From positions 445,024 through 509,023 of the forward strand of contig NZ_NSKH01000002.1 of NCBI RefSeq assembly GCF_003144095.1: DNA of 64,000 nt, given 5' to 3'. Below are positions 964 to 3,533 of this stretch, piece after piece (within the stretch, counting starts at the first letter, position 1; each line of letters starts with the position of its first letter). The notes under the pieces were generated by a model. The model did not search any database. It had not been told where the DNA came from and was given only the letters and a program-made list of their open reading frames with translations. Made by a program: the position numbers and the translations under genes. The stretch is from Streptomyces sp. ICBB 8177. GTDB taxonomy: Bacteria > Actinomycetota > Actinomycetes > Streptomycetales > Streptomycetaceae.

Positions 964-1188
964 TCAGCGAAGCGCCTCCGCGATCCGGCGGCGGAGGCGG
1001 TCGTCGCTGATGGTGCCGACATCGCGCCAGGCCGCGTCGGAGGCCTCCTCGGTCTGCAACTCCCCGATGACGGCAGTGGTGCGGAACAGGAACCGGAAGT
1101 CGAAGTGCTGGTGCGCGGACTCGTCCCTGGCGCCGGTTGGCGTCGATGGAGTGGATGTGCCGGGACGCGCCAGTTGGAACTTGGTCAC
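964..1188 (-). pseudogene. NUDIX hydrolase C-terminal remnant (frameshifted, 5' end lost)
   Basis: The minus-strand reading ends in ESAHQHFDFRFLFRTT and then DAAWRDV...LRRRIAEALR, the typical C-terminal half of actinobacterial NUDIX proteins, which carry HxDFRFLFR. The alignable upstream part, RHIHSIDAN (equivalent to the usual DVHRIPAN), is in another frame, so there is a frameshift near 1130. The segment that would carry the NUDIX box itself is missing. The reading breaks at the 27-bp repeat at 1175-1201. This is therefore a decayed gene cut at the repeat. A short functional peptide is unlikely because no catalytic NUDIX box is present. Confidence 0.6.
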
Positions 1189-1201
1189 GCATGTGGGAAC
1201 T
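1175..1201 (+). repeat. Direct repeat copy 1 flanking the NmrA/SnoaL/TetR cassette
   Basis: This 27-bp sequence, beginning TGGAACTTGGTCACG and ending GGAACT, recurs at 3241-3267 in the same orientation with 24 of 27 identities. It sits exactly where the NUDIX remnant is cut. The two copies bracket about 2.04 kb containing three intact genes. Confidence 0.7.
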
Positions 1202-1209
1202 GGCGGATG

Positions 1210-2064
1210 TCAGCTCCGGATTCGGACCATCTCCCGTTCCGCGAAAGCGCGGAAGCTGCGCGGCGGGCGGCCAGTGAGGCGCTGGACAGTGTCGGTGGTG
1301 CGGTCCTCGGCACCTTCGGCTATGGCGTGGTCCATGCCGGCGAGAAGCGCGGCGAACTCGGCGGGCATGTCGGCCGCCAGGCGGTCGCGCATCTGCTCGT
1401 AGGTCAGCCGGCGGTGGGTGACGGCCCGGCCGGTGACCTGGGTGAGGACGGCGGCGATGTCGCCGTAGCTCAGGGCTTGGGGCCCGGTGATGATCAGGTC
1501 GGTGTTCGGAGCCTGCGCCTCGGTCAGCACACGCACGGCGACGGCAGCGATGTCGTCGGCGTCGACGAACCCGACGCGGCCCTCGCCGGTTGCCGTTCGG
1601 ATGGTCCCGTCCGCTCGGATGGTCCGGGCGTGCGCATGGTCGGCGGTGAAGTTCTGCATGAACCATGAGGGCCGCAGGACCGCCCACTGGGAGAACAGGG
1701 CGGGCAGGGCCTGGTGAACCTGTCCCACGGCAGGTCCTCCGGCGGGGATCGCCGACGAGCTGAGCAGGACAGCGCGGTGGACTCCTGCGGTGCGGGCCTG
1801 CCGGAGGAAGGGCAGCATGACGGCTGCCGGATCCGGAGAGCCGATCGGCGGGATGAGATAGACCCGGTCCGCGCCTTCGAGCGCACCCTCGAAGGACGCG
1901 GGGTCGTCCCAGTCGAACCGCACGGGACTGGCCCCGTCGACGGGGGTGGCGCGTCGGCTGGCGGCCTTGACGCGCCGGCCCGTGGCGCCCAGTCGGGCGG
2001 CGACGCGGCTCCCGGTGGTGCCGGTGGCCCCGATGACCAGGGTGAACCTCTGGGCTTCGTTCAT
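1210..2064 (-). CDS. NmrA-like NAD(P)-binding protein
   Basis: A 284-residue atypical SDR with the N-terminal Rossmann motif GATGTTG at residues 12-18. It also has VFLS-like 'HRAVLLSSSAIP' and the 'LRPSWFMQNF' motif characteristic of NmrA/HSCARG and NAD(P)H:quinone-reductase-like proteins. It lacks the YxxxK catalytic pair of classical SDRs, so it may be a redox sensor or a reductase. Its ATG overlaps the stop of the upstream SnoaL-like gene by one base (TGATG), indicating translational coupling. Both genes are read from the promoter region at 2487-2578, which carries TetR-type operators. Confidence 0.85.
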   Translation of the reverse strand: MNEAQRFTLVIGATGTTGSRVAARLGATGRRVKAASRRATPVDGASPVRFDWDDPASFEGALEGADRVYLIPPIGSPDPAAVMLPFLRQARTAGVHRAVLLSSSAIPAGGPAVGQVHQALPALFSQWAVLRPSWFMQNFTADHAHARTIRADGTIRTATGEGRVGFVDADDIAAVAVRVLTEAQAPNTDLIITGPQALSYGDIAAVLTQVTGRAVTHRRLTYEQMRDRLAADMPAEFAALLAGMDHAIAEGAEDRTTDTVQRLTGRPPRSFRAFAEREMVRIRS

Positions 2065-2486
2065 CAGTTGCTCCCGGCGAAGTGAGCGGCGGGGTTCTGG
2101 ACGGCGAGCGGGTTCCAGTAGTCGCGGTAGTGGGCGATGAGGCCGTTCTTGACAGTGACCACGGCGATGTAGGCCATGTCGAAGGGGCTGTCGGTGTCCA
2201 CCAGACGGCCGACACCCCGCATCTCGACCACGATGGTCTCGGGGGCGGTGGTCTGATGGATCTCCACGTAGGGGAAGTCGTGAAGGTCTATGTGGTCGGG
2301 GTAGTCACGCATGTACCCGGCGACGGCCGCCTTGCCCTCCAGCCGCTTCGGCCAGCCTTCCGGCGCGAAAGGAAACTCGAAGATCCCGTTCTCGTCCCAC
2401 AGGTCGACCCAGGCGGGGATGTCCTTGTCCAGCAGCGCTTGCAGGCCGTGGCGGTACAGGTCCACCGGTGCGGTGTTCGTGCTCAT
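2064..2486 (-). CDS. SnoaL-like / nuclear transport factor 2-fold protein
   Basis: A 140-residue small cone-fold protein. It carries the SnoaL_2-type landmarks YRHGLQALLDKD and WDENGIFEFPF at the N-terminus, and GLIAHYRDYWNP near the C-terminus. The longer upstream reading is not used because the ATG at 2486 begins the family's normal N-terminus and sits just downstream of the operator region. The role is unknown; such proteins act as isomerases, cyclases or binding proteins. It is the first gene of a two-gene operon with the NmrA-like reductase, divergent from the TetR gene that probably represses both. Confidence 0.8.
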   Translation of the reverse strand: MSTNTAPVDLYRHGLQALLDKDIPAWVDLWDENGIFEFPFAPEGWPKRLEGKAAVAGYMRDYPDHIDLHDFPYVEIHQTTAPETIVVEMRGVGRLVDTDSPFDMAYIAVVTVKNGLIAHYRDYWNPLAVQNPAAHFAGSN

Positions 2487-2508
2487 GGGGTGCTCCGTCC
2501 CGTACGAT

Positions 2509-2525
2509 ACGGACCCTGAGTCCGT
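2509..2525. promoter_or_regulatory. TetR-type operator, copy 1
   Basis: The sequence is an imperfect 17-bp palindrome (ACGGACCCTGAGTCCGT) between the divergent SnoaL-like and TetR genes. It is repeated 34 bp away in more perfect form, which fits a regulator binding two sites. Confidence 0.65.
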
Positions 2526-2542
2526 TTCATACGTTCGACGAT

Positions 2543-2559
2543 ACGGACCCAGGGTCCGT
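2543..2559. promoter_or_regulatory. TetR-type operator, copy 2
   Basis: This is a perfect palindrome, ACGGACCC-A-GGGTCCGT, 20 bp upstream of the TetR start codon. Both copies are preceded by CGATACGGACC-like sequence, so the whole segment is a tandem duplication. It very likely serves autorepression and repression of the divergent operon. Confidence 0.7.
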
Positions 2560-2578
2560 TTTGCAATGGAGGAACCGC

Positions 2579-3205
2579 ATGCCCGAACGCAAGCCACGCG
2601 CGGACGCCACTCGCAACCGGGAGGCCGTCCTCGCTGCTGCCGACACGCTCTTCGCCCGTTGTGAGAGCCCTGAGGCGGTCACCATGGCTGACATCGCGGC
2701 AGCGGCCGGCGTCGGCAAGGCAACGCTCTTCCGCGGCTTCGGTGACCGCACCGGCCTGATCCACGCGCTCTACGAGATGCGGCTCGCACCGATCAAGCTC
2801 GCCGTCGAGGGGGGGCCACCACCTCTGGGGCCCACCACCCCACCACTGGAGCGCGTACCCGCCCTCCTCGACGCCGTGCTGTGCTTCAAGATCGACAACC
2901 GCCACCTCGCCCTGGCACTGGAGGGAACCGGCGGCGACAGCCCTTACGTGGCAGAACACTACGAGCGGTGGCACAGCACGCTCCAGGCCGCACTGGAGCA
3001 GATTCCCGGGTTTGCCGACAGCGATTTCACCGCACACGCTCTGCTTGCTGCCACCCGCGCCGACCTCGTCGAACACCTCGTCGGCCGACAGCGGATGACT
3101 CGTGAGCAGATGCGGACTCAGCTGGCGGCCTTCACCGTCAGAGCCCTGGAAGCCCGTGTACCACTGGATCGAACAACCTGGACCGACGTCGAATCCCACC
3201 AGTGA
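2579..3205 (+). CDS. TetR/AcrR family transcriptional regulator
   Basis: A 208-residue repressor. The N-terminal helix-turn-helix spans about residues 14-55, with TMADIAAAAGVGKATLFRGF as the recognition region, and a variable ligand-binding domain follows. The ATG at 2579 is chosen because GGAGG lies just upstream and because the in-frame extension to 2468 would run through the operators. The gene is divergent from the SnoaL/NmrA operon and shares with it a region holding two palindromes, so it is the likely local repressor. The inducer is unknown. Confidence 0.88.
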   Translation: MPERKPRADATRNREAVLAAADTLFARCESPEAVTMADIAAAAGVGKATLFRGFGDRTGLIHALYEMRLAPIKLAVEGGPPPLGPTTPPLERVPALLDAVLCFKIDNRHLALALEGTGGDSPYVAEHYERWHSTLQAALEQIPGFADSDFTAHALLAATRADLVEHLVGRQRMTREQMRTQLAAFTVRALEARVPLDRTTWTDVESHQ

Positions 3206-3240
3206 AGGCGTTCATGCCGTAGCGGGCTCCGGCTGATCAA

Positions 3241-3267
3241 TGGAACCTGGTCACGAATGTTGGAACT
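3241..3267 (+). repeat. Direct repeat copy 2 flanking the NmrA/SnoaL/TetR cassette
   Basis: This is the second copy of the 27-bp repeat, with 24 of 27 matches to 1175-1201. It lies 35 bp after the TetR stop. The stop codon of the adjoining minus-strand remnant falls inside its last bases. Confidence 0.7.
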
Positions 3268-3509
3268 ACCGTTCCGGTCGTGAGGTGTCGATCTCGCGCG
3301 CCAGGTCGTCGCCGACCCCGATGAGGAGCGTCCGCAGTGCCGCATGGTGTGAGGTGCTCGCGGCGCCGATGTGGAACGCCTTGAAGAGGACCGTGCCGAC
3401 CACCGCGCCCACGCGGCCGGACGCGTGGCAGACGGCCCGGGGTCGTCGTGGCGTCGGGCTCGCCGACGAAGACCGCCGCCAGCACCGCCACGACGACGTA
3501 CGGCGTCAC
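3266..3509 (-). pseudogene. Unrecognised gene remnant, apparently frameshifted
   Basis: From ATG at 3509 the minus strand reads MTPYVVVAVLAAVFVGE. Coding-like bias then moves to another frame, giving HASGRVGAVVGTVLFKAFHIGAA and ending in DLAREIDTSRPER with TAG at 3266-3268, right at the repeat. The family is not recognised. The change of frame near 3440 and the stop coinciding with the repeat suggest decay or truncation. It could instead be a short intact gene starting from an internal GTG. Confidence 0.35.
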
Positions 3510-3533
3510 GGATCCCCCCTCGGCCCACCGGCC

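Follow-up and report, generated by a model that had tools for sequence, protein, structure and literature searches.

Features of the locus

The window, i.e. the whole stretch of DNA analyzed, covers 64,000 nt of Streptomyces sp. ICBB 8177 (NZ_NSKH01000002.1, positions 445,024–509,023), and coordinates count from window position 1. A cassette of three intact ORFs lies between two direct repeats, TGGAACTTGGTCACGCATGTGGGAACT (1175–1201) and TGGAACCTGGTCACGAATGTTGGAACT (3241–3267), which are identical at 24 of 27 positions. The features are as follows.

964–1159, minus strand: C-terminal ~63 codons of a NUDIX hydrolase gene, frameshifted; transposon flank and attachment site (NUDIX HMM match adjoining the end)
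1151–1155: GTGGA, presumed left copy of a 5-bp target-site duplication, adjoining the TIR (from the 5-bp duplications in relatives)
1156–1201, plus strand: outer R-end, complete, with TIR TGTGCCGGGACGCGCCAGTTGGAACT and second iteron TGGTCACGCATGTGGGAACT; iterons at +7 and +27 (end alignment)
1210–2064, minus strand: NmrA/NAD(P)-binding oxidoreductase-like cargo protein, 284 aa (Pfam NmrA, 1.8e-10; TIGR03649, 3.9e-72, below its cut-off)
2064–2486, minus strand: SnoaL-like cargo protein, 140 aa (PF12680, 2.4e-12)
2504–2561: two palindromic GGACCC-type sites, putative TetR operators (direct and inverted repeats between divergent genes)
2579–3205, plus strand: TetR-family regulator, cargo, 208 aa (PF00440, 1.3e-9)
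3233–3240: junction between cargo and inner R-end, CTGATCAA (cargo homology of genome G278 ends at 3232)
3241–3267, plus strand: inner R-end with one and a half iterons; its TIR lacks the outer 19 bp; directly behind the tniQ stop
about 3266–3376, minus strand: tniQ 3' end, about 36 codons and stop, FHIGAASTSHHAALRTLLIGVGDDLAREIDTSRPER (92% identical to genome G064; homologous to TniQ C-termini)
3379–3528, minus strand: scrambled remnant of a predicted EamA-type transporter gene, native right flank (intact in congener G001; family named from the sequence)

In a shuffled 6-kb control, the best direct pair of 27-mers reached only 21–22 of 27, which supported the original prediction that the repeats are real. 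The same prediction had described three whole cassette genes and an operator region, and both were present; the palindromic sites may act as TetR operators. A genome-wide scan allowing up to 3 mismatches found only the two copies of the 27-mer in the 6.33-Mb genome, and within its own genome, therefore, the repeat is not a dispersed one.

Homologues of the cassette in other genomes were roughly 70–89% identical. Among the genomes checked, only G064 and G278 had iterons near them, and the homologues L006–L032 showed no such repeat or ends beyond chance where checked. The cassette is therefore also an ordinary chromosomal module.

The repeats are ends of a Tn7-like transposon

The 27-mer was found beside unrelated genes in 17 of the 298 genomes of the bacterial family that were searched. 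As predicted, the module is inserted DNA that has no transposase and lies between copies of a repeat that also occurs elsewhere, and the search proposed for the own genome and relatives gave two copies in the former and these 17 genomes among the latter.

When the copies were aligned, the 27-mer proved to be the inner portion of a longer, 46-bp end (TGAGCCGNGACACGNTAGTTGGAACCTGGYCACGNNNGTTGGAACC), which bounds many unrelated modules. A search with the outer half of the end matched 35 genomes and gave many inverted pairs. Most of these were short (0.26–3.4 kb) and contained cargo genes without a transposase. Inverted pairs at these distances were flanked by perfect 5-bp duplications in 11 of 12 cases, and so was a 22.3-kb pair in G049 that carried tniQ. 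Further 5-bp duplications were found at L248, L241, L224, L225, L232 and L249.

The two ends of the elements were asymmetric. R-ends had iterons at +7 and +27, a pattern reproduced exactly by the outer R-end of the window, and L-ends had four at about +7, +62, +85 and +114. Tn7-like transposons typically have such multi-iteron asymmetric ends and produce 5-bp duplications.

Full-length members (L176, L234, L248 and L116) encoded TnsA-like, rve, AAA/TniB and TniQ proteins, the rve and TnsA matches being weak and below the Pfam cut-offs. L176 had the rve, TniB/AAA and TniQ proteins, and L234 (Nonomuraea sp. G32) had the TnsA-like, rve and AAA/TniB proteins in 7.0 kb between its ends. In L116 tniQ adjoined the R-end, and in L248 the tniQ frame looked disrupted in its 5' half. 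The family thus combined asymmetric multi-iteron ends, 5-bp duplications and, in full-length members, TnsA/TnsB/TnsC/TniQ. The window repeats belong to this Tn7-like family, which is spread through the Streptomycetaceae, and both are R-ends, of which the inner one originally belonged to an autonomous element.

Other kinds of element were considered and rejected. Direct orientation had suggested integron-like or recombinase attachment sites, but the same end was inverted at the far side of complete elements. Integron gene cassettes were dropped on finding inverted TIR pairs with target duplications. An ISL3-like transposase gene lay near one R-end (L048), but full-length elements carry tns genes and tniQ, not those of an IS-type transposon.

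Scanning of the whole window gave no L-end, second TIR or right-hand target duplication, so the completeness of the insertion cannot be proven there. The partner of GTGGA was presumably lost together with the L-end.

A NUDIX codon is the target site

The NUDIX gene breaks off at 1155/1156, which is 19 bp to the left of the 1175–1201 repeat, because the true left element is the 46-bp transposon end. The original prediction had placed the repeats exactly at the ends of the module, with a NUDIX remnant cut at one of them. The repeats do flank the module and the NUDIX C-terminus is broken, but the left end starts at 1156, 19 bp outside the predicted boundary, and the fragment is the target of the transposon.

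Intact homologues of the NUDIX protein (Pfam PF00293) were up to 75% identical. In a comparison that drew on 85 distinct ends, about 50 of them R-type, the R-ends of the window, L248, L241 and L096 abutted one NUDIX codon in four genomes and in the same orientation, always facing the NUDIX 3' end. The NUDIX profile matches met these R-ends at about profile positions 112–114. The junction nucleotide was identical in three of the four, and L096 was one base off.

In L241 the second half of the NUDIX gene lay beyond the L-end, and the duplication was GCCGT. Removal in silico of the 1,990-bp element and one GCCGT copy produced a single uninterrupted NUDIX frame. The L248 insertion had the duplication TTCGC. 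Site-specific and orientation-specific insertion, a criterion of Tn7-like transposons, was therefore seen at four R-ends, and this NUDIX position is a target (attachment) site of the transposon. TniQ is the presumable selector of the site.

Other sites and copies in the family

Several elements (L098:2089–2732, L116:4086–4676, L223, L225, L226 and L221) lay close to terminal-protein-like genes, which we take to resemble tpg, the terminal-protein gene of linear Streptomyces chromosomes; Pfam gave only weak HTH matches for them. L095 and L098 had one flank in common. The gene neighborhood and the common flank suggest a second attachment site.

In Nonomuraea sp. G32, the complete 7.0-kb element of L234 filled its whole contig, and four further contigs (L235, L238, L239 and L240) had identical ends close to their edges. 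The element is perhaps multi-copy and recently active there, outside the Streptomycetaceae.

Paired R-end-like sequences in the same orientation, 73–75 bp apart, were seen at L060:8433/8506, L108:3698/3772 and L218:5339/5414. One of each pair had TTGGAAC and the other TTGTCAC-type iterons, and each pair looks as though transposons of two related types had stacked at a single site. In G068, an 843-bp mini-element occurred three times (L056, L106 and L182) with identical flanks, apparently from duplication of a larger segment and not from transposition.

The tniQ stump and the right flank

The frame to the right of the cassette, previously listed as an unrecognized remnant, is indeed broken, but it is recognizable as the TniQ C-terminus. 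It was homologous to the TniQ C-termini in L181, L061, L057 and L248. The closest was that of L248, a 6.4-kb element of Streptomyces sp. ISL-94, which was nearly identical and had the R-end directly behind it, as in the window. A purely broken host gene was rejected, since 3269–3376 is TniQ and the EamA-type sequence occupies only the part from 3379 on.

Beyond the tniQ 3' end, the window copy contained no core tns genes, and no TniQ or TnsB match was found elsewhere in the own genome (G000). The locus has no transposase because it is a truncated transposon copy. A single TnsB query, in a search without a positive control, gave no match in the own genome, G064 or G278, so that present mobility of the composite described below cannot be shown. 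The EamA-type remnant starts at about 3379, which indicated that a deletion had removed the body of the transposon on the right-hand side.

The EamA-type gene lies 3' of a penicillin-binding protein gene and only about 150 bp of it are left, including an inverted piece of 47 bp. In congener G001 it is whole, and about 6 kb of other genes separate it from the SDR gene. The region around this gene is variable.

Relatives of the locus

In L248, tniQ, one R-end and the NUDIX gene are contiguous, and there is no cassette. This is the kind of empty site, with one repeat copy kept, that the original prediction had pointed to as a check. The window was 87% identical to L248 in DNA over 137 bp (tniQ and R-end) and 78% over 116 bp (R-end and NUDIX). 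These two segments, contiguous in L248, are split by the cargo in the window, and the R-end is doubled.

The composite of R-end, cassette, inner R-end and tniQ stump was found in another genus (G064) at 97.5% identity, with the outer 16 bp of the TIR not recognizable. In G278 the R-end and cassette were present at 94%, and the inner R-end was absent. The 13 bp after its cassette, CGGAACTGGTTCC, matched the innermost part of the L-ends in L057, L103 and L216. This suggested that the cassette is probably the cargo of a mini-element.

Origin of the locus

We interpreted the locus as the right-hand remainder of a Tn7-like transposon, in which a cargo element inserted beside a resident one, the ends fused, and the body was then deleted (probability about 0.85). 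With only the tniQ 3' end left of the core genes, the locus is a remnant and not a functional member of the family.

An autonomous element (L-end, tnsA, tnsB, tnsC, tniQ and R-end) would have inserted at the NUDIX codon through a TniQ-type selector, with its R-end placed towards the NUDIX 3' end. Another member of the family, which had no transposase and carried the TetR/SnoaL/NmrA cargo, would then have inserted between the NUDIX gene and the resident R-end in the same orientation. The cargo element would next have lost its L-end in a small deletion that also took 19 bp from the outer side of the resident R-end, giving the order NUDIX, complete R-end, cargo, truncated old R-end and tniQ. This composite may have been able to move as a unit, as its 97.5% identical copy in another genus would suggest. 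A later deletion in the window genome would have taken the rest of tniQ, tnsA–C and the L-end, and joined the tniQ stump to the decayed EamA-type gene. We infer the order of events, tandem insertion before fusion, from the anatomy of the locus, and past mobility of the composite is likewise presumed.

The direct orientation of the repeats, and the relative that has one copy and no cassette, would also fit a Campbell-type homologous recombination, in which a circle with an R-end and the cassette recombined with the R-end of the resident transposon and left direct R-end repeats around the cassette. Cargo and R-end without the inner copy in G278 are in line with this too. On the other hand, recombination would have had to use an imperfect tract (24/27) of only 27 bp, the outer TIR is missing from the inner copy, and the L-end trace across the cargo in G278 is what an ordinary cargo element would leave. 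We consider such a recombination unlikely. Far less credible still is the mechanism originally proposed, that the redox module was brought into the site by recombination at a dispersed repeat with no relation to any transposon. The repeat does bound the module and adjoins unrelated genes in other genomes, but its termini are defined, its iterons are asymmetric, 5-bp duplications flank the elements, and full-length members contain tnsABC/tniQ. Moreover, it has only two copies in its own genome, and no counterpart beyond chance at the cassette homologues L006–L032. The paired inverted TIRs with target duplications refuted this proposal: what had been taken for a dispersed repeat is the end of a Tn7-like transposon, where the transposase binds.

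The NUDIX junctions, for their part, might reflect shared descent, i.e. one old insertion, or a NUDIX fragment with an R-end, that was inherited or transferred, instead of targeting. The cases number only four, and three NUDIX fragments (window, L248 and L096) have frame damage. However, the four elements differ in content: L241 carries LysR/SDR cargo, L248 has tns genes and tniQ, and L096 has other genes. The NUDIX genes have diverged as well, and the perfect duplications of L241 and L248 are different. These differences argue for separate insertions and make common descent improbable.

Returning to the tandem insertion and fusion beside a resident element, we tentatively suggest a wider pattern, for which the odds are somewhat below even. 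Tiny transposase-free cargo elements of the Tn7-like family might stack with autonomous relatives, at the NUDIX codon or beside terminal-protein-like genes, and R-end fusion might be a regular way of gaining cargo.

Comparison with known systems

In Tn7, repeated orientation-specific insertion at its attachment site can stack elements. The scenario proposed here likewise involves orientation-specific repeat insertion at one attachment site, but the target is within the NUDIX coding sequence and not downstream of glmS. Moreover, unlike in tandem or nested Tn7 insertions, the two elements here would have fused, with loss of the ends between them.

The mini-elements resemble MITEs and other non-autonomous transposons in that terminal repeats are kept, the transposase is absent, and mobilization is presumably in trans. 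In contrast to MITEs, they carry whole cargo genes (e.g. LysR and SDR) and Tn7-like asymmetric ends.

The locus and its relatives supply defined ends, a NUDIX insertion codon, and elements of both full and minimal length. They also offer a snapshot of how cargo is captured. Target selection by TniQ and trans-mobilization of mini-elements are therefore directly testable, and the NUDIX-targeting family is a candidate site-specific integration tool for Streptomyces.

A search for Tn7-like together with Nudix gave nothing relevant in the full text of open-licence papers. In the portions of text available, NUDIX-gene targeting was not found in PMC8649781 and PMC10293859, and NUDIX was absent from the latter. 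Tn6022, which targets comM and has TnsF/TniQ, shares with the present family a conserved intragenic insertion point and disruption of the gene, according to the available part of PMC10293859; the family here has another target and other end sequences.

The available part of PMC8649781 describes a second, Actinobacteria-dominated clade of Tn7-like transposons, of which no member had been experimentally characterized at that date. As far as that text goes, the clade and the family here have in common TnsA/TnsB/TnsC/TniQ, asymmetric binding-site arrays, 5-bp duplications and cargo, and the family is a candidate member. In contrast to the clade as described there, the window copy keeps one R-end, the cargo, a truncated second R-end and the tniQ 3' end. 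It is a new variant of a Tn7-like kind that is already known, though experimentally uncharacterized.
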